Source: Beroe ovata
Taxonomy: Eukaryota; Ctenophora; Nuda; Beroida; Beroidae
NCBI GenBank assembly: GCA_946803715.1
Contig: CAMPET010000335.1
Location: 6,218-44,484 of the forward strand
Length of the DNA stretch: 38,267 nucleotides
Direction: 5' to 3'
Part shown: one piece after another, positions 5,368 through 32,007 of the stretch
How positions within the stretch are numbered: position 1 is the stretch's first letter
How the letters are laid out: each line of letters begins with the position of its first letter
The notes under the pieces: model-generated
The model's input: only the letters and a program-made list of their open reading frames with translations
The model's database searches: none
Told to the model about the DNA's origin: nothing
Position numbers and translations under genes: made by a program

Positions 5368-6141
5368 ATGACATGGTTTCTACTATCAATTCTGGTCCCA
5401 GTATGCTGCAGTGCCCTGACCTATTTCATTTACCAAAAACATTTGAAGATACTTTATTATAACTTGGTGCAATCATTTTATAAGTGCTCTGTCTTGTTCA
5501 AAGATCAATTTGAAAGATTGAACTACGTAGGTGGTGTAGACATTTCTTTCTCCAAAACTAATGAAAAACATGCCTGTATTTCTCTTGTGGTGCTAGACAT
5601 TGACTCACTCAAGACAGTGTATTCTTATTCTGAATTCATAACAATGCATGAAGATTATATTCCTGGATATCTAGCCTTTAGAGAAACACCGCATATTCAA
5701 AAGGTTCTGAAAACATTGATAAGCCAATCTTGTCCATTTTATCCTGATATTCTACTTGTGGATGGGAATGGAAGGCTCCATAAGAAAGAGTTTGGTCTGG
5801 CATGCCAGACTGGTGTATTATGTGACATTCCTTGTATAGGTGTGGCTAAGAATTTGTATCTTGTTGATGATAGTGTTACAGCTCAAAACCGAGATGTATG
5901 CAACCTCAGAAATGTGGGGGATTCAATTGATTTTGTTAATTCCAGTGGTATTAAATTGGGCTGTGCTTTTAAAAGTAGCAAAGATTCTACCAAACCAATT
6001 TATGTTTCAGAGGGACATAGGGTTTGTTTAGAAACTGCAAAAGAAGTTATTTCTAAATGTTGTAAATACAGGGTCCCAGAGCCTATAAGACTAGCAGATA
6101 TTCTTTCCAGGAAACTTTTGAGAGAAGATGTACCAATTTGA
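5368..6141 (+). CDS. ENDOV: Endonuclease V with an unusual hydrophobic N-terminus
   Basis: Inosine-specific endonuclease V (a ribonuclease acting on inosine-containing RNA in animals). 257 residues, single exon. The active site is intact: Asp58 in GGVDISF, Glu106 in PGYLAFRE, Asp132 in LLVDGNG. Their spacing (48 and 26 residues) is identical to that of the human protein. GLACQTGVL, PCIGVAKN and the C-terminal VPEPIRLADILSR are also family blocks; the usual His of the HLGVL motif is Gln147. The first 22 residues (MTWFLLSILVPVCC...) are strongly hydrophobic where homologues are polar, so either a membrane anchor is present or the true first exon lies upstream. It heads the plus-strand trio. Confidence 0.93.
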   Translation: MTWFLLSILVPVCCSALTYFIYQKHLKILYYNLVQSFYKCSVLFKDQFERLNYVGGVDISFSKTNEKHACISLVVLDIDSLKTVYSYSEFITMHEDYIPGYLAFRETPHIQKVLKTLISQSCPFYPDILLVDGNGRLHKKEFGLACQTGVLCDIPCIGVAKNLYLVDDSVTAQNRDVCNLRNVGDSIDFVNSSGIKLGCAFKSSKDSTKPIYVSEGHRVCLETAKEVISKCCKYRVPEPIRLADILSRKLLREDVPI

Positions 6142-6273
6142 TATTCTATGAATATTCTACAGCATATCTACACATTTATCATAATGTATTAGATTTTACT
6201 GACCTTTGATACTTCAATTGTGAATCTCTATTTCTACCATTGGAATAATGTTTTTCTGCAGTCAAGGTTTCTA
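6142..6273 (+). other. Short intercistronic spacer ENDOV to ATP5F1D
   Basis: Only 132 bp lie between the ENDOV stop and the ATP5F1D start. It contains no AATAAA and ends with TTTTTCTGCAG (AG at 6260-6261), 12 nt before the ATG. This mirrors the 137-bp spacer of the opposite-strand trio. Confidence 0.55.
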
Positions 6274-6826
6274 ATGGCATTCAGAAGACTGGCCACTCAA
6301 TCTTTGGCACTGTGTCAAAGAGCTCTTGCTACTGAGGCTTCTGGGGTGACCTTCCCTCTTACATTTGGAAATCCTTACAAAGCTGTTCATGATAATGCTC
6401 CTGTGAAACAAGTTGATATTCCATCTACCACTGGTATGTTGCAACCTTCATCAACTTTGTTTCTTTAATGAAACAGATCAGTTTATTTAAAGTAAATATC
6501 TGAACATATCTTCAGGGCACTTTGGAATTCTCCCAAACCACGTCCCCACCATTGCTATCCTAGTGCCTGGTGTTGTGGCAATTCACACCGACTCTGGTGA
6601 CGTTCAAAAGTACTTTGTGAGCAGTGGAACTGCTACCATCCACCCTGATTCTAGCGTTCAGATCCTTGCTGAGGAAATCTGTGAAACAACCGACATTGAT
6701 GTGAATGCAGCAAGGGCTGGTTTGGACGCAGCTCAGTCCAAATTGAGTGCAGCCTCACAGGAAACGGATAAAGCCGCTGCTCAAATCGAGATTGATGTTT
6801 ACCAAAGTATGATAGCTTCTGCTTGA
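6274..6826 (+). CDS. ATP5F1D: ATP synthase F1 subunit delta, mitochondrial
   Basis: Delta subunit of mitochondrial F1 (homologue of bacterial epsilon), part of the central stalk. Two exons, 6274-6433 and 6516-6826, join in phase 1 to give 156 residues (about 168 in human). The N-terminus MAFRRLATQSLALCQRALAT is a typical Arg/Ser/Leu-rich matrix-targeting peptide. The beta-sandwich (VTFPLTFGNPYKAV, GHFGILPNHVPT, KYFVSSGTATI) is followed by a C-terminal helical hairpin rich in Ala (NAARAGLDAAQSKLSAAS). The start follows an acceptor-like sequence at 6261. It is tightly packed behind ENDOV on the same strand. Confidence 0.96.
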
Positions 6827-15653: not shown

Positions 15654-16286
15654 TCAAGGAACACTAGGAATTTGGGGGTGTGACAGGAACAGCCTGTACC
15701 AGGCTGTCAATCTGACAGTCAGGTCTAAACTTGACAGGTTGATCTGGGCTTCCCCCAATGACAACTTCCTCGCGAAGCGTTCCTTCGCCACAACATAGAC
15801 AGTCAGGATCTTGTCATTGAACTCTGGGTTGAAAGTGAACAGTTCGTTATAGGATGGGGAGGGACTACTCTTGGCTAGCTTGGACTTCTTCTTCTGGTAT
15901 TTTCTAGTCGAGAGTTGGTCCAACAAGTGTGCCTTCACATACGTATCTGAAAAATAGGAGTCACCATACTCTTGTTACCATGACATCATCATGTCACCAT
16001 GACATCATCATGTCACCATGATATCATCATGTCACCATGACATCATCATGTCACTATGACATCAAGATATGGCACTCACCAAAGTGTTTCTCGGGGGACT
16101 TTGATTTCAGATATCTGGCTCGGATCACGGTAAAGCGAAGTTTTCCCTCGCACACTTCAAGTGACACCTGCACATCGCCGCTCACTTGACGCTCTGAAAG
16201 TCCTGAGCGTGAGAAGGGAGCGTCAGGTCGCGACACTTTGGGGAGGAAGAATGTAACGGGTTGTACATGGGAAGTAGGAGTTGACT
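15654..16286 (-). other. C-terminal C2 domain, RIM C2B-like
   Basis: Exons 16080-16286 and 15654-15946 (phase 1 join). They read [88 protein letters not shown] and WYRLF, ending in IPSVP. RIM C2B domains begin similarly (GDIQVGMMDKKGQLEVEIIRAR) and carry YVKVYLLD and GVAQILL. There are no calcium-binding aspartates. The domain is preceded by the short exons at 16377, 16786, 16965 and 17245. Confidence 0.87.
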
Positions 16287-19200
16287 CTGGCATAAGTGTA
16301 TCCCAGTTTTAGACCACACGGGAGAAGGGTCTCATATAATTATAATTGCAAATTAGGGCCCACACTGAGCGGTTACCTGGTGGGCTCCATAACCCTGGGT
16401 TCTGACCGGGCCCAATACCGATCACATCGAGTACAGTGCCCTTGTCGTGGCCCTCAGGCGGAGGCCGAGCTGTCATCCTCACACAGTCGCTCTCTATCGA
16501 ACTGGGGGGGTATAAGTGGTCCCTGGTGGTTGTGAGGGAAAGAGAGGGGGATTGATAATGTCTCGCAGCGCGATGGGGGGTTCATGCGTGTGATTCGAAA
16601 CGTGACAGCAAGAAACTTCTTTCAAAGTTTATGATTGGGCATAATTGAAACTCGACAAGATACTTATAACTTCCTGTTTATTCCATATAAGGAGATTAAC
16701 GTTCCCTCTCCATTATGACCAGTGGGTTTGCTGACGCCACATTCTGATCTCCCAAAGTGAAATCACAGGTGAGCGGAGTACTCACCTCTTAGTGCTACGT
16801 CTACCAGCACCGGCAACACTAGCTTCCTCCGAACTGCGAGGGAGGGGGGAATTCAAACACATGACAACACCAGTAAACGCACTATCGCACCATGACAACA
16901 ATAACGTTATCAACAAGTTACCATAACAACACCTGTTACCACCCACGTTACCATGACAACTCACCTCTTGGTCCCCCGCCGGTCTGTCATAGCCGGAATG
17001 TCGGGGACCACAGTGTCCTCCTGGTCGTACGAGTAGGTTTTGCTGGAAAACAGCGAGGCCAGGGACCGCGCTCCGCCTAGTCGCTCCTTCGGTTTGGAGT
17101 GTGAGATCTTGGATCCCACTCCGCTCACAAACTGAGGGATAAGTAAACATAACACGTGACATTACACGTGACGTGATTGTCACGTGACATTTCTACATTG
17201 GTATGAGAATGGCCATGAGAATGCTACTGAGAATGAGGTGTTACCGGGTCGACTTTCCCCTGGTGGGAAGTTTCCGAACTCGTCTCATCGTCCGTCGGTA
17301 GTTTTATCTTTCGACCTGTCAAATTTCACAGTGTGAGTAGTGATAACGTCATGGTAGATACCATGACAACAAGAAGGCTGTAATAAGTTGAGAGAGGATT
17401 GGTTTACTTTTGACAGTGAATAATTGCCAAGGGGCACGCGCTCATATCAAGATCGCAATTTAGGGTGAGGAAATTCAATTAAAATATTCCATGATTAGTG
17501 TTAATGAATCGCTGTGATAGCTTATCAATTAGCTACCGCTAATTGGCTTATCTCAATTCCTAGGAAATTCTCTCTAAGAGACAAATTCTCATTCTAACTA
17601 CTGCATATTTTTCTCTGCGATTCGGTATGAAATTTTTCACGACTGTTTTCATTCTTGTCTGCGCTGCTGTGACCAGTTACTCGGTCACGATTGACAGAAC
17701 ACAGAACTTCTACATCGACTGGCAACATGACAGGTGACACTTTCACCATGACAACACCATATTTCCATGACGACAATATTGAATGTTATTATCCTGCATT
17801 GACTGGTCAGGTTTGTGAAGGACGGGTTACCGTATCAGTATGTTGCCGGGGGTCTTCACTACTTCAGAGTACCGCAACAATACTGGAAACACAGGATACG
17901 AGCAGCCAAATCGGCAGGTAAGATACGTCACTACAAGTACAACATGTAACCATGGCAATGTCACCAGCATATGACTCCCACCAACTCATGCTCCCAATGT
18001 CTCTTTAGGACTGAACGCTATACAATCCTATGTATCATGGGGCCTACATGAACCACTGAGAGGTGAATACAACTTCCAGGACAGATTGGACATCGTGAGG
18101 TAGGTGTAACCATGGCAACCAGTCACGAGTAACCATGGTCCATAACAACAAGAATGTCGCATGTTCATCTCTCCTCAGATTCATCAAGACAGTCCAGGCA
18201 GAGGACATGACTCTTATCCTAAGAGTTGGACCCTACATTTGCGGCGGGCAGGATTTTGGCGGTTTGCCAGGCTGGTTACTATCGATACCAGGCATGCAGG
18301 TCAGGACTACAAATACAGAATTCATGCTGGCGGTGAATCAGTGGCTGGGGGTGTTGCTAGGGAAACTGGAGCCTCATCTCTATAACAACGGGGGTCCAGT
18401 CATCATGATACAGGTTTGACCGTGGGAAATAAGATCTTATGTCGCAGTTGTCGGCAGGCCATGACAACACATTATCCCTGACACACAATGTCACCACATC
18501 ACCCTGACACCAGCCTGACACCACAACATGGCAACAGATAGAGAACGAGTATGGCGCATTTGGTTGTGATGCTGACTACATGCACCAGCTATACTCCCTG
18601 TTCCACAAGAGACTGGGCGACGAGGTGGTATACTTCACTCTGGATGGTCCTGGTGACTTTGTGTGCGGATCCATCAATACAACACAGGTTAGTTACCATA
18701 GTAACGCGTGGTTAGTTACCATAGTAACGCGTGGTTCAGGTTAGTCACTATGATAAAGCGTGGTTAGACACCATAGTAACGCGTGGTTATAGATACCATT
18801 CAAACTTCAGGTACTGACGACTATCGATTACCTGGAGGACAATGATAAGAGCGCGCACACTGAGGAATATTTTGCTGCTGTGAAAGAGTACCAGCCCCAT
18901 GGACCCCTAGTAAACACGGAGTTCTACACCGGATGGCTGGGCCAATGGGGATCGCGACATGTTACCAGGGGTATGCATTGTCATGGTAACATGATTACCA
19001 GTGCACTGTTACCATGGTTACACACTTCCTCTCAGATGCTGCAGCTCTGAGCAGGGGGTTGGAAAAGTTGCTCTCGCTCAACGCAAGTCTTGCACTGTTT
19101 CTGTGGCACGGTGGAACTAATTTTGGAAGGGGTGGAGCGTTTTCAACTACAACCAGCTACGACTACGATGCTCCAATGTCGGAGTCAGGTGAGGGGAACT

Positions 19201-22200
19201 AGCCAATCAGCGCACGCACAGAGTAATTTGATGGAATCATCCAATCAGCGCACAGAGGAAATAATCAGAAAATCGACAAATCGAGATTGTGAGATCGCAA
19301 TCTGGTTTGTTAACCAGCTCTTTGCAGGCGATATGAGACTCGACAAGTACTGGGCAATCAGGAAAGTTCTGGAGAATTACTTCCCCGGTAATACACTACC
19401 AGTTCCACTACCAGTGAGGAAACTGGGCGGGAAAACAGTGAGGATGACTCACGTGGGTGATTTGGTATCCATGGTTACTAGAGACAACTTCATACTGTAC
19501 AACCAACACCCGCTCAAATTTGAGGAAATGGGTGAGTGTTCTCCGCTCCACTGTTACCATAACAACCCTCTAGTACCATCACCAAGAAAACACTCTGTTA
19601 ACAGGACTGTATGACACGATGTTAGCATACAAACACACCCTGACAACACCACTACACCACGTGCAAATGATAGTGGAGGGGGTTCATGATCGAGCATACG
19701 TCCTGGCTGATGACAGATTTGTCAAGGTAACATTCAGGAAATCGAAAAAAGAATTCCTGGGGTCTCCTTAACCAGATGACAATAAACTTCAAATAAGATG
19801 TCAACAATTTGTGCAGAATTTCACACAATGAACAGTGGACCATGATTACTCAGGTATTGAAGAAAGAAGAAGCTGTCAGTTTCACAGTGTCAGCAACATC
19901 CACCATAACAGTCATTGTTGAGAGTCTGGGACATCTAGCATGGCTGAGTGGCGGACTTGATTCCATGGGTAACGAATACAAGGGTAAGTGTGCTGACACC
20001 ACTTCACACTGTACTGACACCACTTGAATGTGTTGACACCAGTTCGTAATTCTCGCAGACACATCTTGTATACATGAATGTTGTAACCATGACAACACCG
20101 TGTACCAGGAATTGGGAATGTTACTGCTAACGGAGAATCGGTAGAGAAATGGGGTCACTACAGGCTGGATACAATGACACCAGATAGTGGGATATATGGG
20201 AGTCATGGTAACGCTAGTGGGTGTCATGGTAACTCAACGTTACACAACGAACATGGCCTACTGACACATGGGCCATCTCTATTCAGAGGTATATTCTCAT
20301 TTACTTAAAGTCAGTAAAGTCAGAGATAGCCCCTAGTGTAAAGTGATCCTGCTACAACAAACTAAACTCTCCCCCAGGAACGTTAGAGCTGACCTCATCA
20401 GAGACACTTGACACTTTCCTTGACACCACTGGATGGGGCAAGGGGGTGCTGTATGTGAATAACCAACTCATAGGGAGATACTGGCCTCAAGCCGGCCCCC
20501 AGTACACCCTCTACATACCAGGTATAGTACTCTACAATGGTTGCTATGGATACGAACTATGGTTGCTATGGATACGGACTATAGTAGTCAAGTGTTGACA
20601 TCTGTTTTATTGTTTCAGGGGTCTATTTGCAAGAAGGAGTGAACACTATAGAGATGATAGAAATGCAGTTGGCTAAACAATCTCTGACAGTCAGATTGAC
20701 AGATAAACATATCATCAACGGGAAGGCAAATAGCAACGTGGTCTGAATCACCATGACAACGTCACTATGACAACAGAGCAACAGTGATTGATTGCCTACC
20801 TGACTTGGGAGTGAACAGCTTCCTGAACTTCTGTAGTGGAGATAAGACAGCCGAAGTGTTGGGAACTGATACAGGGCTATCCTTGATATTGACACTGCAC
20901 GGATCCGCCGTGCCATCGCTAGATTTCCTGCGGAGAATGTTACTTAGCAACCCTAACTAGTTGCTCATAGCAACACTAACATGTTGCTCATAGCAACACT
21001 AACATGTTGCTCATAGCAACACTAACATGTTGCTCATGGCAACACAATGATTATCTAGGTTGTGCATCTCACCGCTCTCCATCACTGCTGGTATCAAGCT
21101 GTTTGATAGAGTTCTCTTGTGAACTCTCTACTGATTGGGCTGATAATATGGGTTCTAGAGGCTGGTGGTGTTGTAACGTCGATACACCTGTAACACAATA
21201 TAGAGTTACTAAGATGGTTACCAAGGTACCACTGTTACCACTGTGACACGGTTACCGAGGTGACGGTTACTTACTGGACTGGTGCATGAGTTCTGACATA
21301 TCGACTTGCACTGGTTGAGGCATGATGGATCCTTGCGAACAGTATGGTCTGATCTGTATGGATGGTATACTTCCCTGATAATTTGACTTTGTTCCACATT
21401 GAATTGTAAATTCAAGAATTTGTGGTTAACCTATATCAACCTCATGTCAAATTACAACACTTGTTGTTTATCTCCCTACTTGAACTGAGGATAGACTGAG
21501 ACGGCGTGATCGGGCTGCGGCGGAGAAATCTGGGAGCGGGTCAAATGACTTGGAGAGTCGAGGAGCCATCCTTGGGGACAGATCAGGGACCAGCTTTAAT
21601 TTCCCTGTGGGATTGTGGCAGATGAAATTTCCAGTGTCGAAAGGAGCGCGCGCATGACGCGCGCGTTACTAATTGCTCTGACAGCGCGCGCAGCACATGA
21701 TACTCTACATCAATTGCTGCGCGCGTTCCGTATTATTACTGTCGAATATTGGGATAACGTGAATGGGGCAAAGTGACAGATTCATAATAATGCTTTAATT
21801 TCAGTGACGGTGAATGACGCACCATCTTTGACAAGAATCGTGTATTAATGGTAAATGGTTTAAACGGTGGGGGATAATAGTTCTGTAATAATAAAGACAA
21901 ATTAAGGTATCAAGCAAAGAGTGCCATTATTTCGCATCATTTCACAGTAATAAAATGCCTGGTATGTGCGAGATTTACTGATGGAGTATGACCACTTTGT
22001 GGATAATTAATTTAGAATCGGGTGCAATATATACACCAGTATATATCGCAAGGGAAAGATAGAGCCAAGAGGGAGAGATCACTCAACGAATGTTACACAC
22101 CTACCACATAGCCCATTAGCCACATTTCTTTAGTTGGAACTACCTTGATTCAACTCATGTTCAAAATGTGTATACTGCAGTGTATTAGGTAATGCAAAGT

Positions 22201-25200
22201 CTTTCTAATGCATTATTCTGATGTACAGAAAGAACACTGTGTACCTATAGAGTGGTTTCAGTGCGTGAAAACTGGTGTCAATGTATCGATCCATCATACG
22301 GTGTCAACACAATATGGATAAATTATATGCTTGCATTTGACGTAGCAAAACAGGTACCAATCGTGTTCTTTGATATATTTTGAGATTCGACATGCCACAT
22401 AATAACCCCAACTTAGATTAACACAAAAGGCATTGTCTTGGCGCCTTTAATCGCTTTGTGTCTCAGTGTGTGTCTAGACTCTAGAGTGTGTGTCTATGTG
22501 TGTGTGTCTATGTGTGTGTGTCTATGATTGTGTGTGTGTGTGTGTGTGTGTCTATGTGTGGGTGTGTGTGTGTGCGTTTGTCCCACTCCCTCTCGTGGGT
22601 AATTATTGTGTTGCGAAGTACACACGTAAATTCACGGGTAGAATACGAAAGTTTCCTTTTATGGTATGATGGGTGCAGGAATTGCCAAATTACACGCTCT
22701 CCCGAGCCATAATTTGGAGTCCCCGCAACCCCGCAACCGACACACAGAGAGAGTGAAAATCACGTGCACCCTGTTAAGGCACGTGTATCACGTTAATGCT
22801 CGAATATCACGTTAAGTCACGTGATTTTCAGACCCTGATGACCACATTCCTACTATAGCAGCTCTGTCAGAACACGTCTAGCACTTTGTGGTTGCTATGC
22901 AAGGACAGGCTATCGTCATGGTAACAGCGGGAACATACCTTCTGAATAACATGGTCTTGATAGTGGTTGGGGTTTGGGTGAGGCTGGGAGACAACTGGTT
23001 GACTTGGATACTGGTCCGATCTGTGTGTTATTCACATGTTACCATGGCTATATCAAGCTGCTATCGTGGTTATAATTAGCTGTTACCATGGTTACACTAG
23101 TTACCATGGTAACACTCACCCCCGGTTTGATGGAATACGCTGGAGTGAGCAGATCTCTGGAGGACTTGAAGTCAGAGAGATCGTGCCAGCGGGCAATTCC
23201 GTCACATTGATCCAATGTCAGGAATATGATGGCCTGACGCAGTGTGATAGTAATAGAACAAGCGTTGTCATAGTTACGATTGTAGTAGTGACATCACTGT
23301 GACGTCATAGCAACATGATGACCGTACATACCTGTCCCATGAATGAACTACATGAAAATCTGTCATAGTGCAGCGCAATAATCTCCAGATAGTGGTTCTT
23401 CAGCTGCGGGGTACAGAATTGGTAAGTGACGGGTAGTGGGTTGTCATAGCAACACAACTTAGCAACAGCAACACTCACCTCTGTTGCTGAAACCCCAGGG
23501 AAAACAAACTGCTGGTTCCAATCAGGATTTAGAGTTCTCGTCATAACTCGAGTCTTCCGCTTACTGTTAGGATGATATCATAAACAACACGAATATGCAT
23601 GTGATTCAGAGAGAGAGAGAGGAAATTCATTCGTTGCCATAGCAACCGAATTAGGTTCCATAGCGACAGTACCTGCGATCAGGGTGAAGATACAGTTTGA
23701 GGTAAGGTTCCGCCGATCCCATCTTATCTCGAGGAATGAGTCCTTTAGCTGAGATAGCTGTCACCATGAGCTGGTCACTCTCAAACTGTAACCTAACCTG
23801 TGTTAACATGATATGTTAACACAATATATCTGTTAACAAGTACTATAAGAGTGCAGGATGGTGCATGCTATAATAAGCACTATTCCACTATTCATACGGA
23901 ATTCCACAGACCCATTATATTGCATTCCCCACGCCGTATTGGATATATGGTAATGGGAGCAGCGAACAATGGATTGTGCAATACTATTGTTTCCTTGTTG
24001 TCTGGAGAATATTATAATGGCTCTGTGGAAACCACACACTATATAATATCTCCATGCAACCTCTCTTAGCAACCTCTCTCATTGCTCACCTGTACAGAGC
24101 CAGTAACCGGGAGATTCTTGTCCTTTATCCCAAACTGACTGTACTGTAAATGTCTCTGTAGGTTGTGCTTCAGGGAAGTTGAACTAGCAACACCACTTCC
24201 CCTCCCTGGGGTAATGGTGTCAGCAAACTGACAACACTTCGGATAAGTGACACCAGGTCTTCTTGACACCACTTCTCACACCAATATGTACTCGTGAGAC
24301 AACACTTCACTGAATGTTTGTGTACACCGGGAGGTAAGAAGCGTGTTACTTACTTAGCTTACCCCAATCACGATATTGCACAGTGCACTGTATCACACAC
24401 ACACGTGCCGTGTTATCACATGTTGGTGAGAGTAAACTACTTATCACTTGTGTGATAAACATCTCACAGAATCAGTAGAAATCTTTTCATCTCACAACGG
24501 GACAAGTTGTTATAACAACTGATTGTTGCTATGGCAACATATTGTACACTATTCAACACTATAGTACACTATTGGGTAACAGACAACATAATAATATACA
24601 ACTGTGCAGCAGTCTCCACAACTATCAGACTGCCTCCCTGATGCTATTGTCTGTACAGTTTGCAGTGTAGAGATAGAGTGCTTTTGTCTCAAGGGGAGGA
24701 AGGTTCTGTGCAACAGATTAAGTGGTTATATATTGGGTACTGTAGTCATGTTAACAGCGTGTTGTCATGGTAACAACGTGTTGTCATGGTAACAACGTGT
24801 TGTCATGGTAACAACGTGTTGCCATGTTGCCGGTGTTACCTGTGTTGCTGCTGTCCTCATTATCATCGTCAATGTTGTCCGCACTGTAGAAAAGGATGGA
24901 ACCTAAACTCATCCTGCTGTCCAGTGACGTTGATCTGGAATCATACCTGCGCGTCACGTTGTCACAATGTTGTCATGTTAACATGTTGTCATAATACCAT
25001 ATTGTCACCATGGTAACACTGACCTAGAAGTCCCGTAGCTTGTATAGTTGGAATCCACACTTGGAGACCAGCTACTCCGGCTGGCGGATAGCCGAGAGTC
25101 GACACTGGATCGACTGTGCCAGTAGCTGCTCGTACCAGCACTGTCACACGACGTGGAGTGGATGTAGCGTAGAGTCCTGGGGAGGGGGTGAGGGGTATGA

Positions 25201-28200
25201 GGAGGGAAGGGAGGGGGAGGAGGGAGCGAGAGGGGAAGAGATTAGAGGTATGTGTATGTGAGCCAATGTGAATCATGAGGGGAGCGAGACAAAGATAGGA
25301 GACACGTGTTTAAAGATATGAGACATGATATAAGGGACACGTGATAAAGAGACACGTGATAAAGAGACACGTGATAAGGAGACACGTGATAAGAGAAACG
25401 TGATAAGAGACACGTGAAAAGAGACACGTGATAAAGAGACACGTGACATTCCTCACCTGTAGGACAGGTCACTGTCCGACTCCGCATTTGTCAGTATCTG
25501 CATCTCACACTGACTCGCGTTGTCTGAACTCGTGTCTATGGAGATGGACTTGTTCCCGAATGTGGTCCATCTCCTCGGATGTGTCCGTGTTGTTTGCTTC
25601 ATCTGCAGAGAGGTGTGTTCATAGGAACCGACCCCCAGTAACATAGTCATCACCTAGCAACCCCTAGCAACATAGCCATCACCTAGCAACCCCCTAGCAA
25701 CATAGTCATCGCCTAGCAACATAGTCATCACCTAGGAACCCCTAGCAACATAGTCATCACCTAGCAACCCCCTAGCAACAGACCTGACTGACTAGTCTCT
25801 TGACTGGTGTTGAAGGTTGTAAGTGTGTCTCAGACGCACTGTTGTGTTGCACGTACAGCGGATACCAGTATGCTTTTCCTGACAAATCTGCATCGCAAAG
25901 ATCAATCAGAACCTGATGAGATAATTAGGGGACAATTAGAGGGGTCATATCTCGAGGAGGTACGTGAATTAAAGCAGGTACGTGATTTGGAAACACGGGG
26001 GGGGTGAGAGGGTCTTTAGAGCTTAGAAGGTCAAGACTTTTTGTATGTGACAATGGCATCAGGAGAACGGCATCTCAAGAATGAGGGGGAGGGGAGATGT
26101 CAGTGGTTACCTCTCCTAGAAACTCGTTTGCAGCAAATCTGTCGTAGTGCCATATCGTTACTTCCAGAGCTATTTTACCGACCTGGCAGGAAATTCCCAG
26201 TTAACTATCATAATTTGGAATCGCTGCTTTCTGCATCGAAATATATGTGCTCTCTGCAGAACTCCATGTCATAGCGGAAAGAGGTCTGATTTTTCAAATA
26301 CCACTAGAACAAATGTCGCACATCAGCGTATATATGCGTGCGTGTGTTAATAAAGCACATGGGGGGTCTGTTCGTGTGCAATATATCGAAACAATTTGCA
26401 CTCTAGAAAGGGATAATCGGGTTTCAAATTGAAAATGATCAAACCTGGTCTCGGTTAATCTCGCTGAATTTGAAGATTTCGTCATAAATCGGGTTGAGAG
26501 TCTTGTTTTTGACCTTGGTCTTCCTTTTCCTCGAACCACTGAATCAGTTGAGTATTACAACACGCACTGTTACCATGACAACACGTACACAGTTACCATG
26601 GCAACACGTACACTGTTACCATGACAACACCCACTGTTACCATGACAACAAACCTGTGTTACCATGACACATGCAGTGTTACCATGACAACACGCACTGT
26701 TACCATGACAACAAACCTGTGTCTAGGTAGGAGGAACAATTTCACGTAAGGGTTACACAATTCTCCCTTCTCCTGACACGGCAGATCCTCCACTCTTATC
26801 ACGGTGACATACAGCGAGTCCTTGAACGGCTGCAAGTTACATGAGTTGAGAACACGAAGAAGTAATTCACGAAATAATGATCCAAGAAAATGATGGTCCA
26901 GTTAAAACTGGTAGTATTCAAATGCGACCTTCAAACTGTCATCCTATAGTTGAATACCACATTAATGTCGACAGGGACTCTCCTACATTGTAGTAGGGGT
27001 TATGTATACTACTTATTTAGACTATTCTAGAATAGCTTCATGTACAATGTACATTGTACATTCCATGTACATTGTACAATGTAGACACGGACTCTACCTT
27101 ATAGTGCATTCTCAGGAGTATGGTTCCCCTGTTTGATTCCGGACCACCCTGTTGCATCTGCTGGGAGAGAGAGAGAATTCATCACACATCCCCAATAGCG
27201 TGATGTGATGTGAGAGTGATGTGGTGTTGATAATCACACATTATTCAAACAAACGATCACACACATCACTCAGAAGCACCACATTATCGATAGAAGCCAC
27301 AGTACCACAAGTATACTTCTTGGTACCCCTGGTTACCATGCAATTGTGTGTGTTACCTGACTCACTACCGCACTGCTCAATGTTATTTTCTGTGGTGTCA
27401 CGGGGCTGGGGGCCTGGTCCATCTGCGGTGGTCGGGTCAGCAGGACGCCCGCACAGAACGGATCTCGGTCATCGATACTCAGGGCGTCGCAGCTGTTCGT
27501 CCTCTTCTTGGGTTGAGGGCCGGGGGTGAAGCACATTCCGTGCATTTTATCTGGAGATTGGGAGTAAGTGGAAGAGACTAGAATACTAAACAAGGGGTAA
27601 CCAGGTGGATGTATATTTTAGTGAACACATACCAAGATTTGCTCGTCTGCTCATGATCGCTCGTCGCAGAACTTGAGATGAACACTGGAAACTGTGCTGT
27701 CTGCTTGCTATGTTCCATTCTATCGGCTGGTTACTGAGGGGAAGAGAGACTAGTAATCATGGTAACCATGGTAACCAGTATGGTAGTGCGTTACCATGGT
27801 AACAGCGACGCTCACTTGATCTGGTACGCTACTACGAATGTGGTGTGTCTGTTGTAGTTGGATGTGATGGACTGAGTCTCCTCGAATGTCTTGCCCAGCA
27901 GAAGCTCTGTGTTCCATGATATCACCAAATCACCTGTGTAATGAGTTGTTGACGTTTCACCACGTACGTTCAATATAGCTGGACGGTTGGTGAGGTGAGA
28001 AGGTGAGTTTATTCCATCCTCCCTTTTCTCTCTTAATAAAGTGAGACACGTTGTGTTATTTGGCATGTCTCACTTTGCGACTATACCTAGGCACTTTCAC
28101 AAGTCGGCAGTGTCCAAGGAGCAAAATTATGAGCAAAATTTGGCGCGGTGACGATGTCGGGCTTCTAAGATACTGCCCATAAGTCTCGCTGTTTCATTGT

Positions 28201-31200
28201 CTCACCTGGTTTCACAGATGTCTGTAGGTCAGCAGGACTGCCCAGTCTCACGGTTACCACCTTAGCAACCATCCTGTTCCCGGAATTCTTACCTCCCACC
28301 ACTCTGAGACCGAGGTAACCGCCTGTGACACGGAGTTTGATTAGGAAATGATTCAATTCACGCGATAAGTATTAAGTGTACCTGAATCATAACTTCAATA
28401 TGTAGCACTGACTCACTCTGTGCTAGGGGAGGCGAGTCTGTTTCCAACTCGAGAGAGTACTTTCTCAGGAGACGAGAGTGTCCGATATAGTCATCTAAAT
28501 CAGGTGGGAGTCCCTGAGAGAGAGATGTTACCATGACGATGTTACCATGACAACACCACTGTTAACACTCATGTGAGAGTCTGCTACAACATTGTAACCA
28601 TGACAACATGAAACCTCTCTTAGACGTTGGGTCTCCTCATCGTCCATAACATCGTTCAGAGATGACATGGAGTTTCCACAACTCTCTATATTCTCCTTTA
28701 TTGCCTCCTGCAACCACCGCTCCTAGGGAGCTGGTTATAGTGTGTTGCTATGGAAACAGTTCTTATTGCTTGCGTTGCTATGGCGACATGGAGCATGTGA
28801 GTTGCTATAGCAACATGTTGCTCATTGAAATACCTGGTTTAGTTCGTTCCTGATCAGAGCTATCACATCGTCAGCCCCACTGCTCTCACTACTGGTTCTC
28901 TTCACCTGAGAGCTGCTGACGGAGGACGTCTTGGAGTAGGATGTCTTGTGACTCGAGCCGGAGTTCTTAGCAGACCCTGATTCCTCGGGGGAGACCTAGG
29001 AGAAACGGAGAGGAGATTCACAGGAGGATAAAATTTGAGGAATGAGGAATGATGTTTTGTTATAATGAGGGAGAGGTGAACCTTGTTTGAACCAGTGAAA
29101 CTACTGTTTTCCGAATCCTTCATTCTTTGCTGCTCCACCTTAGATAGCTGCAATAATATCATCATCTCACATAATTATTCGGATTATTTGGATTATTTGG
29201 ATTGAGCTAGAATACTCTTCAAACTTCTATCACGGGTCAAGGACCATGTGAATCTCGAACAACTAAAGTTATCGGTTCCCAAACCTTCTCATGGATGCTC
29301 TCGACCAGCTCATCGTCTGTGAAATCCAAGCTCTTCTGCGACATGCTGATAAGTTTAGCACTGCGCAGTGAAGAGGACGATTTCTTCTGGCTGACTCGGG
29401 ATGTGTCATCGCTGGGGAGGTTTCATGATGCTGGGGTTGTACGGAAAACACAACCTTTTTACTATAAAAGGCAGCTGTTTGAGTGAGCACCAGAATTCAT
29501 GACGTGAGACATCCATTGTTGCCAAATCTCACAGAATGACGTAATCACGTGTGTGTTTGTCAGGAACACAAACTCTGAGTATGGTCATGTGTTGTAAGTG
29601 CACACTGCTATTGTTGAGTAGTACCTGTTGAGAGAATCGATGCTGAAGGAGAGTCGACTAAACAGACTGTTTGACTCTGAAGACTTCCTGACAGTTTCAC
29701 TGCAAATATTGGGGGGTTGTCAAATTGTGATTCTCACCAAACAAGGCCATTTAACCAGCACAAATAGTTTTGTTGTGAGAATGTGACGACGAAAACAGTT
29801 TTTGGGGAAGTTAACTCGCAGTAAAACAGCGATGATCTTTATTATGCTACATAAATGGAGCAGAGCGTTGAATTCAATTACTAAGTATTGACCATGATAT
29901 GATGTTTATCCAAATATTTCTTACAGGAATGGGATGACCGATTTACTAAACGTACTGAACATGACAGCGTTAGAACATTGTCAATAAGTTCTGACTCAGC
30001 TAGATAATTCTGCTGACATTCAACAGAGCATTTTGCTTACTCTTCAGGCCGTGATGAGCTTATAAGGGAAATTTTGGGGGCAGAATCTTCCTTCACTTCT
30101 GCCTATAAATAGAACACAACGTGACATTTACCGACTTTCAGAAATTCGTCATACTAAAAATAGAATTAATCAAAATAGAATGCATATCTAACTGATAAGA
30201 CCAAACTCTCACCTCCTTGCACGTGCTCAGACTGATATCAGGTGTTCCACCAGTGCTCCTTGACGTGGAGCTGGACTCTATGTTAAACTGGCCACAGATT
30301 TCACCTCGACAACAACTATCAGTTCCCCATCTCCTGAAACTATCATCTCCTCTCCGACCCTCCTCACCCCAACTCCTCCCTTTGGATGAGTGAGGGGGCT
30401 CGGGGCTGTTGCTTCCTGTTCGGTGTCTCTCGGTGTCACAAGTTGGGAGACTCCGGTGGTGGTGTTGGGAAAAGTGATCACAAGACACACCCTGATCTGT
30501 GCTATGACTGCTCGTTCTGTGCTGATCAGGCATCGCATGACCACACTTCTGATGATGTTGTTGTTCGGGGATTTGTCCACATGATTTCTTATACTGCTGC
30601 TGATCTGTGCTTGGTTTATGGTGGTGTTGCTGCTGGTCAGAGTTTTGTGAGCCAGACCTCTGGTGGTCAACACAATGTCCGCTCGTCCTGTGTTGTTCAA
30701 CGCTGTGACTGCTTGTCCTTTGTTGATCATAACTGTGGCCACTGTTTCTGTGAGGATTCTGATCAACTGGGTGACTCCCAGCTCTCTGCTGCTGTTCTGA
30801 ACAAACTGAACCAGAACACACCGCAGATCTGTGTTCTGAGGAGTGGCTTCCTGATTGGTGGTGTTCTGGGCTATGAGTCACACCAGTATCATAGGGATAC
30901 CACAGACCAGTTCGCTTGAGGAATTCTCTCTTCTTCACACAGAAAACACAAAGGAATACTTTCTGAAAAATAGTATTGATATCAAATATTAGCCATTATG
31001 TTGTAGAACTTACCATTTTAGAAAAGTCACAATTTGCTTCAAAAGGAGAAAGATACCTTTGGCCAGTTGACTGAGTAAGAATACCAAAATACCCCACACA
31101 ATGGGTAACAGATTTTATTTAAGCAATCATAGCACCCTTGTAATCCTATGTCCTGCAAAAGTTGAGATGAGGAAGAGTGCTAATATGGCACAAGCATCTG

Positions 31201-31324
31201 TGCAATGAGGTCACTGTTAACCTAATATCTGTTACAAAAATACCTTGGAACAAGAGGGGTTGATAGGCTTAAAACTCTTGCATTCAACACATAGTTTGGT
31301 AAAGTCACTCTTTGCTTCAAGAAT
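15654..31324 (-). CDS. RIM-like active-zone scaffold: zinc finger, PDZ, three C2 domains
   Basis: Member of the RIM/Fife/Piccolo scaffold family, which in neurons ties Rab-bearing vesicles, calcium channels and priming factors. Predicted exons (minus): 31244-31324, 31057-31152, 30213-30962, 30041-30102, 29625-29699, 29285-29411, 29082-29147, 28834-28995, 28615-28722, 28417-28513, 28206-28322, 27816-27933, 27633-27733, 27357-27550, 27098-27160, 26717-26829, 26445-26538, 26111-26182, 25784-25912, 25457-25602, 25024-25176, 24840-24946, 24090-24227, 23673-23797, 23479-23563, 23332-23403, 23120-23233, 22939-23020, 21480-21604, 21275-21374, 20800-20927, 17245-17315, 16965-17131, 16786-16833, 16377-16501, 16080-16286, 15654-15946: about 1,640 residues. 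Phases agree throughout except at two places (24227/24840 and 20927/21275), where a small exon or another splice choice is missing. The start exon is unresolved. Confidence 0.88.
15960..16070. repeat. TCACCATGACATCATCATG minisatellite
   Basis: About five tandem copies of a 19-bp unit in the last intron of the RIM-like gene, variants of ATGTCACCATGACATCATC. It fills most of the intron between 15947 and 16079. Confidence 0.8.
17627..20746 (+). CDS. Secreted/lysosomal beta-galactosidase (GH35)
   Basis: GLB1-type glycoside hydrolase family 35 enzyme removing terminal beta-galactose. Thirteen exons: 17627-17733, 17811-17917, 18009-18099, 18179-18413, 18538-18687, 18811-18970, 19036-19188, 19328-19531, 19605-19726, 19854-19983, 20109-20288, 20378-20521, 20619-20746. 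They total 1911 nt in one open frame, 636 residues (human GLB1 677). Signal peptide at residues 1-18 ([19 protein letters not shown]). [14 protein letters not shown], acid/base Glu184 in IENEYG and nucleophile Glu267 in NTEFYTGW match the human spacing; WHGGTNFG is also present. Exon 10 might instead begin at 19836. Exon 11 includes a Gly/Ser/His insert made from the local intron repeat. The gene is nested, antisense, within an intron of the RIM-like gene. Confidence 0.95.
18692..18795. repeat. GTTACCATAGTAACGCGTG minisatellite
   Basis: Four units in a beta-galactosidase intron; the first two start at 18692 and 18715 (23-bp period), later ones are degenerate. The core GTTACCATAGTAAC is a near-palindrome. 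Confidence 0.85.
20800..21604 (-). other. Linker exons of the RIM-like gene
   Basis: Three exons: 21480-21604 ([20 protein letters not shown]...RRLSLSS), 21275-21374 ([19 protein letters not shown]) and 20800-20927 ([25 protein letters not shown]). They are Ser/Pro/Arg-rich. The last ends in phase 1 and joins exactly to 17245-17315, skipping over the whole beta-galactosidase gene. The join between 21275 and 20927 is out of phase as read, so one small exon may be missing. Confidence 0.65.
20960..21045. repeat. 23-bp minisatellite GTTGCTCATAGCAAC
   Basis: Four near-identical copies starting at 20960, 20983, 21006 and 21029, each GTTGCTCATAGCAAC plus ACTAACAT. It lies between the 3' end of beta-galactosidase and the next RIM-like exon. 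Confidence 0.92.
21605..22938. other. Large intron of the RIM-like gene
   Basis: 1.3 kb between exons 22939-23020 and 21480-21604 (minus), which join in matching phase 1. It contains a CGCGCG-rich foldback zone (about 21640-21730, GAGCGCGCGC / GCGCGCGTT) and a (TG)n microsatellite at 22485-22577. No exon recognised. Confidence 0.6.
22485..22577. repeat. (TG)n microsatellite
   Basis: TGTGTGTG runs interrupted by TCTA, in the large RIM-like intron. Confidence 0.95.
23120..24227 (-). other. Second C2 domain, an extra copy not in typical RIM
   Basis: Exons 24090-24227 (end), 23673-23797, 23479-23563, 23332-23403 and 23120-23233. Key segments are [73 protein letters not shown] and [17 protein letters not shown]. 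Its introns interrupt the domain at the same three places and in the same phases (2, 0, 0) as in the first C2. Calcium ligands are largely missing here too. Confidence 0.85.
24755..24835. repeat. 19-bp minisatellite GTTGTCATGGTAACAAC
   Basis: At least three perfect units with a 19-bp period (GTCATGG at 24764, 24783, 24802). The unit is almost entirely the near-palindrome GTTGTCATGGTAACAAC. It directly abuts the donor of exon 24840-24946. Confidence 0.9.
25302..25446. repeat. CACGTG (E-box) minisatellite
   Basis: About nine copies of a 15-bp unit GAGACACGTGATAAA; eight keep the perfect palindrome CACGTG. It starts ten bases from the donor of the RIM-like exon 25457-25602. Confidence 0.9.
25640..25790. 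repeat. ACCTAGCAACCCCTAGCAACATAGTCATC minisatellite
   Basis: About five degenerate units of CCTAGCAAC and CATAGTCATC, filling the intron between exons 25457-25602 and 25784-25912. Confidence 0.85.
25784..27160 (-). other. First C2 domain (RIM C2A position)
   Basis: Five exons: 27098-27160, 26717-26829, 26445-26538, 26111-26182 and 25784-25912. Key segments are [72 protein letters not shown] and [19 protein letters not shown]. The calcium loops keep few aspartates (CQEKGE in loop 1, [11 protein letters not shown] in loop 3), so it is probably calcium-independent, as known for RIM C2A. A Ser-rich linker follows (exons at 25602, 25176 and 24946). Confidence 0.85.
26568..26715. repeat. CACTGTTACCATGACAACACG minisatellite
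   Basis: About seven units of GTTACCATGACAACA with short spacers, occupying almost the whole intron between exons 26717-26829 and 26445-26538. Confidence 0.9.
27790..27803. repeat. Perfect palindrome GTTACCATGGTAAC
   Basis: One of three perfect copies in the window (the others at 14245-14258 and 23100-23113). It lies 12 bp from the donor of the second PDZ exon. The motif equals the RFX X-box consensus. Confidence 0.8.
27816..28417 (-). other. PDZ domain of the RIM-like protein
   Basis: Encoded by exons 28206-28322 and 27816-27933 with the end of 28417-28513. The ligand-binding loop is [12 protein letters not shown], close to the RIM sequence GALLGLKVVGGK. It continues [34 protein letters not shown], then TFEETQSI and TTFVVAYQI. 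The phase 1 joins at 28417/28322 (donor GTGAGT) and 28206/27933 restore the motif exactly. RIM PDZ domains bind ELKS and calcium channel C-termini; the partner here is unknown. Confidence 0.88.
30213..30962 (-). other. Large His/Gln/Ser-rich exon of the RIM-like gene
   Basis: A 250-codon phase 0/0 exon. After the end of the zinc finger it encodes a degenerate repeat of about 10-14 residues of the type R-(T/S)-S-x-H-S-x-(D/E)-Q, for example [18 protein letters not shown] and RTSSHSTDQ, with QQQHHH runs. It probably forms a disordered, possibly metal-binding or condensate-prone linker. An opposite-strand open frame here is a shadow. Confidence 0.8.
30900..31324 (-). other. RIM-type (FYVE-like) zinc finger, three exons
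   Basis: Joined reading gives CVEC, a lone Cys in NPSCSK, CYDC, ICYPLC and LCVFC, then [13 protein letters not shown]. This follows the RIM pattern, in which four CxxC knuckles are followed by a conserved C-terminal piece (RIM: NLCRKQQEILTKSGAWF). Intron boundaries fall at 31244/31152 and 31057/30962, all phase 0. The third knuckle has three residues between its cysteines rather than two. In RIMs this finger lies in the Rab3/Munc13-binding region; Rab binding here is not shown. A possible upstream exon near 31503-31550 (MEWTFDEVQL before a GTAAGT donor) could hold the preceding helix, but its phase does not fit. Confidence 0.8.
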
Positions 31325-32007
31325 CTGTTTGTAAGCACATAATTCTCTGTACAATCGTCTGATGTAAAGGATACTTTTGAAATATAGGAGGCATTCATCA
31401 AAAAATCATTAGAATCCCAGGTTATCATGAATACAAATATGATGGTACTTGACATTAATAACTGGAAAATCAAAAAATAACTGGAAAATCAAAACTTACA
31501 TCAACTGAACTTCATCAAAAGTCCATTCCATTGGTGTGGAAATCATTCTTGAATAATCCAGTGTTGAGTGATAATGAATTGCTGCATCATATTTATGTTC
31601 TGCATCTCACATAGTTGTAGCTGAGTAAGATACAGGTGAACCAACAAAATAAGATAGATAAATAAATAAATAAAAGGATAATGGTATTTAACCATCTCAA
31701 TTCTCTAAAACACTGAAAAGAAACATTCACAGCCATTTGAAAAAAGGCCACCTTTAAACTCAGGTGTCCAATGGATCCAAAAAAAGAACAATCACATTTA
31801 GAGGAAGAAAAACTGCTAGCCAATGTTAATGCCACTTTCCTTTGCAATTTTTTTGAAAAGGAAATTGAATCGAAGTGAAACTAAATAAAATAAATAAAAT
31901 TTTTAGGAAGGAATTGTTCAATCATGAATCATTTATAAAATATTGGAGTAAAATTTTTCTTGGCAATGGAAATATAATAAAATCAGCCTATTTTGATATG
32001 CTGGCGA

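Follow-up and report, generated by a model that had tools for sequence, protein, structure and literature searches.

Does a gene of the ctenophore Beroe ovata encode a RIM-family scaffold with three C2 domains instead of two and, if so, where did the additional domain come from? RIM-type scaffolds organize the sites of release in nerve cells, and a C2 domain is a module that binds membranes or proteins. The gene, which we call RIM-a, lies on the minus strand of a stretch of 38,267 bases (43% G+C; C335:6218-44484), referred to here as the window, in a genome scanned over 77.8 Mb and 534 contigs. We favor, at a probability of about 0.7, the reading that RIM-a is a ctenophore RIM-family scaffold of the order (zinc finger)-PDZ-C2-C2-C2, in which the extra C2 would have arisen by duplication of a C2A block and the C2 domains would make Ca2+-independent contacts.

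The gene model was built from minus-strand stop-to-stop frames with a home-made exon-chaining script, whose codon scores were trained on the visible domain exons and whose splice-site scores were generic, followed by hand curation of the phases and of one corrected donor. The curated model is a frame of 39 exons running from 31531 to 15654, whose phases join and whose sole stop stands at its end, in agreement with an earlier note on this DNA that had found the domains on one strand with joining phases. Several linker splice sites score weakly, among them the donors of exons 29082-29147 and 28615-28722. Along the frame, a zinc finger with a weak resemblance to those of RIM and rabphilin is followed by a RIM PDZ, by C2-1 and C2-2, both of C2A type, and by C2-3, a C2 of RIM C2B type (Table 1), and Pfam marks three C2 stretches in the RIM-a protein, as it does in P0001, its counterpart from Mnemiopsis leidyi.

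Taken singly, the domains match RIM or Piccolo domains best. The best single-domain PDB chain was RIM2 C2A for C2-1 (1v27, 87.9 bits), Piccolo C2A for C2-2 (1rh8, 84.7 bits; fly RIM C2A, 4ts6, reached 71.0) and RIM1 C2B for C2-3 (2q3x, 55.9 bits), and the best PDB match of the PDZ was the RIM2 PDZ (1wfg, E 1.1e-11; RIM1 PDZ 1zub, E 6.3e-8), which bears out the RIM-family scaffold that the earlier note had described. By these matches, the RIM-type PDZ sits upstream of the C2s, as in the RIM/Piccolo homology family. Downstream of it stand C2s of C2A type, C2-1 by its RIM2 C2A match (its place in the tree being weak) and C2-2 by the tree, and the C-terminal C2 is of C2B type with an L/IGPxQ motif just ahead of it, again as in that family. 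The zinc finger, with eight cysteines in four pairs, one of them C-x3-C, scored 15.8 bits against Pfam FYVE_2, below the cut-off of 27.2, and matched rabphilin 1zbd at E 1e-4; of the two N-terminal domains said to be readable, the PDZ stands and the finger is weak.

A broad protein search with residues 545-1651 of the model, in the version preceding the lengthening of exon 16377-16501, returned P0001, a hypothetical protein of 1212 amino acids. Aligned with the curated RIM-a protein, it has identical residues in 953 of 1233 columns. The match essentially begins with exon 28834-28995 and continues to the C-terminus, over 31 of the 39 exons. In P0001, a single chain includes the three C2s, their linkers and the PDZ region; the eight exons upstream of 28995, zinc finger included, have no counterpart in the P0001 model. 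C2-2 is the best conserved domain between the two species (118/123) and C2-3 the least (79/124). Searched against the genome of the window, P0001 found RIM-a exons on C335 only, the remaining matches being single C2s of other loci. Because P0001 runs through all the C2s and the conserved linkers, two separate genes are unlikely, and the comparison argues strongly that RIM-a is one conserved ctenophore gene, as had been claimed for its three C2s. As predicted proteins, RIM-a and its Mnemiopsis relative have one C2 more than the other RIM proteins examined, and since both carry three, we regard RIM-a as a RIM variant and not a canonical RIM.

Intron positions, expressed as column.phase in a home-made C2 profile of 12 domains that includes the three of the window, coincide in C2-1 and C2-2 (50.2, 81.0 and 105.0), confirming the shared positions and phases (2, 0, 0) first read from the letters. 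Intron 50.2 interrupts PRH[AG|T]GSRKRK in C2-1 and PDR[AG|T] in C2-2, and intron 105.0 of C2-2 comes after FMGQ|. Each of the two blocks comprises four exons, begins and ends in phase 0 and has a third exon of 72 nucleotides; the N-terminal flanking intron differs (13.0 in C2-1 versus 9.0 in C2-2). C2-3 has the different layout that had been noticed, with a single intron elsewhere, at 38.1. As controls, 40 stretches around C2 matches were fetched, which take in 48 of the 50 matches outside the window, and 36 were scored after three without a fragment of 10 bits and one near-copy were dropped; two of the 36 are C2B copies of a second RIM gene, RIM-b. None of the 36 clearly has the three-intron layout, and an uninterrupted frame crosses 50.2 in 18 loci, 81.0 in 23 and 105.0 in 16. 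GT or AG letters fall on one intron spot in eight loci (L009, L018, L019, L020, L031, L033, L040 and L048), of which L009 and L020 have the highest donor scores, 1.4 and 0.3; we took these spots as coding because in each locus the C2 match continues across the spot without a change of frame.

RIM-b lies on C116 at ~155.6-161.5 kb and has a PDZ, a C2A and a C2B; a scan of this stretch found no further C2. C31 carries part of a second copy, in four blocks 85-96% identical to C116. The three intron sites recur in the RIM-b C2A (GG|A at 50.2; AKE|LAEK at 81.0, where the donor is weak; LGQ|VEID at 105.0), as does the third exon of 72 nucleotides, and the PDZ phases of RIM-b are 1, 1, 2, as in RIM-a. 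Since RIM-b has this layout too, the layout is a mark of a RIM-type C2A, not of some recent change within RIM-a, and the time of the duplication cannot be read from the shared introns. The earlier argument from shared introns to an internal exon-block duplication therefore survives insofar as the extra C2 has the C2A layout, and fails as a means of dating. The first C2B exon of RIM-b is in tandem on C31 (L053 3533-3631 and 4098-4196), with the C31 and C116 genes being diverged copies, perhaps two haplotypes, and the RIM-b C2B intron seems to hold another gene, a long open frame at L053 (C31) 5543-6616 that we take to resemble a 2OG-Fe(II) oxygenase. A gene on C67 was considered as a third RIM because its C2 contains NPYVK and the start of its C2B has intron 38.1; it carries a transmembrane-like segment upstream and, by our reading, is related to synaptotagmins, so intron 38.1 is not specific to RIM.

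Trees of C2 domains were built from 31 domains (128 columns), from 27 rows and from 22 rows without long branches. C2-3 grouped with RIM/Piccolo C2B in each (97/97, starred; 96/96; 93/91), which, together with the 2q3x match, supports both the description of the C-terminal C2 as RIM C2B-like and the prediction that the tree would place it there. C2-2 fell with RIM/Piccolo C2A, weakly (79/93, not starred; 78/15; 86/88), and not in the unrelated family that had been named as the contrary outcome. C2-1 was outside and loose in the 31-domain tree and joined the C2A group at 54/48 in the 22-row tree. The predicted sisterhood of C2-1 and C2-2 was neither recovered nor rejected, as forcing it with 27 rows made the tree 4.4 log units worse, at p 0.227 in the approximately unbiased (AU) test, and with 22 rows gave p 0.257. 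Uniting C2-1, C2-2 and C2A scored 0.2 above the unconstrained tree (p 0.523, 27 rows), and the 27-row constraints joining C2-1 to C2A without C2-2 and C2-2 to Piccolo C2A gave p 0.359 and p 0.346. Concatenated PDZ+C2A+C2B trees did not resolve the placement of RIM-a with type I or type II RIM.

Three complete C2s occur in none of 11 non-ctenophore RIM/Piccolo-type proteins (P0002-P0008 and P0032-P0035); two C2s are present in nine of them and one in P0008; P0007 is partial, with two and a repeated fragment of the last. This amphioxus protein, a candidate RIM-II, turned out to be a partial Piccolo-like model with duplicated pieces. A review, in its accessible text, describes RIM with two C2s and a PXXP site for RIM-BP between them (PMC10169678). 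The statement that known RIM, Fife and Piccolo proteins carry at most two C2s agrees with the 11 non-ctenophore proteins and with this review on RIM. Excerpts of two papers report, after Piekut et al. 2020, that type I RIM is missing from ctenophores and that their RIM is of type II (PMC7939481, PMC11405698). No three-C2 RIM was named in the literature surveyed by title and abstract, a partial coverage with the main ctenophore RIM-II study outside it, so novelty is unproven; a mention of "three C2 domains" that we looked up concerned Munc13 in the portion available. A Munc13-type MUN domain is also found in the genome (C152). Searching with C2-1 alone returned no RIM except that of Mnemiopsis among 56 scored candidates, and two broad searches, which scored the 7986 and 7994 best word-sharing candidates, returned no placozoan, cnidarian or further ctenophore RIM. 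Because only the best word-sharing candidates were scored, the absence of further ctenophore or type II RIMs means little.

With the bilaterian type I proteins RIM1 and RIM2, RIM-a shares a PDZ, C2A-type and C2B-type C2s without full Ca2+ sites, an LGPxQ-like motif before the C2B and, as a weak candidate, a zinc finger of the same type, but it has three C2s and not two, lacks the [RK]xLPxxP motif and is only ~30-38% identical per domain. Piccolo has the same order of zinc finger (a candidate one in RIM-a), PDZ, C2A and C2B, and its C2A scores best with C2-2 among single-C2 chains; the amphioxus Piccolo-type protein, however, is longer (2591 amino acids) and has two C2s, and its C2A and that of rat Piccolo keep all five Ca2+ aspartates, whereas the RIM-a C2s do not. 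RIM-b resembles RIM-a in its PDZ intron phases, its C2A intron positions and phases and its L/IGPGQ motif, and differs in the two C2s found, in having RVLPKVP and in a C2A identical to C2-1 at only 36/124 positions. An L/IGPxQ motif precedes the last C2 in all seven proteins scanned (RIM-a, where IGPGQ precedes C2-3, its Mnemiopsis relative, RIM-b, fish RIM1, scallop RIM, Saccoglossus RIM and amphioxus Piccolo), and its use as a mark of the RIM/Piccolo family is an observation of the present analysis. In RIM-b (as RVLPKVP), fish RIM1 and scallop RIM, the RIM-type [RK]xLPxxP stands in the segment that links C2A to C2B, and in Saccoglossus RIM and amphioxus Piccolo it stands elsewhere in the chain; RIM-a has looser PxxP stretches such as LPASPKPQP.

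Five aspartates of the synaptotagmin 1 (Syt1) C2A bind Ca2+. At these positions, C2-1 has E N H D E, C2-2 has D E H D S and C2-3 has S D A E L, and because none keeps all five, the RIM-a C2s are expected to be Ca2+-independent; C2-2, without a full site, probably binds independently of Ca2+. A lysine/arginine-rich strand is kept in all three, and the Ca2+-independent RIM2 C2A binds membranes with phosphatidylinositol 4,5-bisphosphate (PIP2) in simulations, according to the accessible part of one study (PMC8507603). RIM-a would sit at release sites like RIM, with its PDZ holding the C-termini of partners, and its C2s may act without Ca2+, through basic strands on PIP2-rich membrane or through protein contacts, so that the extra C2 would give the scaffold one more membrane or partner contact. 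Judged by its identity to Mnemiopsis, C2-2 is under strong constraint, a sign of selection on the domain and not of any particular binding partner.

Several points weigh against the reading we favor, in which a C2A block of four exons, phase 0 to 0, would have been copied inside a RIM gene before the lineages of Beroe and Mnemiopsis parted. C2-1 and C2-2 are sisters in none of the trees, and at 42/122 identical positions neither is closer to the other than to other C2As; a constraint joining C2-1 to synaptotagmin C2A was not rejected (p 0.105, 27 rows), and when whole chains were ranked, two-C2 synaptotagmins beat RIM/Piccolo for all three C2s, by summing two domains. The zinc finger is under the Pfam cut-off and absent from the Mnemiopsis model, Pfam reports no PDZ in the RIM-a protein, and the [RK]xLPxxP motif was found in neither of the two RIM-a proteins scanned (window and Mnemiopsis). 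RIM-a is known from a predicted model and not from a transcript, P0001 is itself a predicted "hypothetical protein", and membrane or PIP2 binding and a synaptic location of RIM-a are things that we only infer.

We consider it rather unlikely that the middle C2 was instead captured by exon shuffling from another gene, RIM/Piccolo-like or encoding some other C2 protein. Such a capture would fit the unrecovered sisterhood and the Piccolo C2A match of C2-2, and a phase 0-0 block keeps the frame inside any phase-0 intron, but all three internal introns match those of C2-1 and of RIM-b C2A, a layout that none of the 36 other loci clearly offers. It is also doubtful that three C2s are ancestral in RIM/Piccolo, or that C2-2 is the canonical C2A orthologue to which C2-1 was added, with losses elsewhere. 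Ctenophores branch very early, which we counted in favor of three ancestral C2s, and the trees place C2-2 with RIM/Piccolo C2A while leaving C2-1 unplaced; RIM-b, however, has two C2s in the stretch scanned, and the lack of a third in all 11 proteins of other animals would require repeated losses. That two neighbors, one gene with PDZ-C2-C2 and another with the C2B, on either side of a glycoside hydrolase family 35 (GH35) gene, were read as one is highly improbable: a 3.5-kb intron with a whole opposite-strand gene does divide the two parts of a model that has no transcript, but the predicted Mnemiopsis protein crosses this point with sequence conserved on either side, against the two-gene outcome raised in the earlier note, the phases fit, and the exon after C2-2 goes on with a GTGAGT donor.

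The GH35 gene lies wholly inside this RIM-a intron on the opposite strand and has two beta-galactosidase domains in addition to its Pfam Glyco_hydro_35 match; its last exons are roughly placed. Many introns at 16-29 kb, those of the GH35 gene included, contain short palindromic GTTACCATGGTAAC-like repeats, as read by eye, and frames at ~33.2-36.8 kb on the minus strand, upstream of RIM-a, read as seven-transmembrane receptor-like. Elsewhere, a single frame of 583 amino acids (C281:30190-31665) with a FYVE_2 zinc finger and two C2s is rabphilin/Doc2-like.

Table 1. Features of RIM-a and of the gene nested in it, in window coordinates and in the order of RIM-a transcription.
Feature	Position	Strand	Basis	Identical to P0001
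Start exon (guess)	31500-31531	-	Gene model
Zinc finger, first part (exons 31244-31358, 31057-31152)	31057-31358	-	Model; weak FYVE_2; rabphilin 1zbd
Zinc-finger end and Q/H/S-rich low-complexity stretch, one exon	30213-30962	-	Model; 1zbd alignment
Start of conserved pre-PDZ stretch; first exon with P0001 support	28834-28995	-	Alignment	109/117 (pre-PDZ)
PDZ (main exons 28206-28322, 27816-27933)	27816-28322	-	1wfg; intron phases 1, 1, 2	61/78
C2-1, C2A type (first strand in 27098-27160, then 26717-26829, 26445-26538, 26111-26182, 25784-25912)	25784-27160	-	1v27 match; phases 2, 0, 0	120/128
Ser-rich linker C2-1/C2-2 (exons 25457-25602, 25024-25176, 24840-24946)	24840-25602	-		156/185 (whole C2-1-to-C2-2 linker)
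C2-2, extra C2 (first strand in 24090-24205, then 23673-23797, 23479-23563, 23332-23403, 23120-23233)	23120-24205	-	1rh8, 4ts6 matches; phases 2, 0, 0	118/123
Linker after C2-2 (exons 22939-23020, 21480-21604, 21275-21374, 21073-21187, 20800-20927)	20800-23020	-	Model	148/192 (C2-2 to large intron)
3484-nucleotide intron between C2-2 side and C2-3 side, split codon G|GT; houses GH35 gene	17316-20799	-	Model
GH35 beta-galactosidase gene, separate from RIM-a	17627 to ~20746	+	Pfam Glyco_hydro_35, E 2.3e-82
Pre-C2B linker with IGPGQ (exons 17245-17315, 16965-17131, 16786-16833, 16377-16501)	16377-17315	-	Model; motif scan	85/130 (after large intron)
C2-3, RIM C2B type, and stop codon (exons 16080-16202, 15654-15946)	15654-16202	-	2q3x; C2B clade	79/124

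A ctenophore presynaptic triad has been described in the accessible text of one paper (PMC4685580), and it is debated whether the synapses of ctenophores and of other animals have a common origin, with RIM among the proteins named in the parts available (PMC4685580, PMC11405698). It is a speculative and unlikely extension of our reading that ctenophores split the job of RIM between a two-C2 RIM-b with a RIM-BP-type motif and a RIM-a without it, whose strongly kept third C2 would possibly tie together vesicles, plasma membrane and the endoplasmic reticulum sheet of the triad; if true, this split would be a lineage-specific release-site architecture made from RIM parts. Under the duplication that we favor, RIM-a would exemplify how a scaffold of the active-zone type gains a domain through an exon block, and RIM-a, with its extra and nearly unchanged C2, and the two-C2 RIM-b are two concrete proteins to compare in animals whose presynapse looks different.

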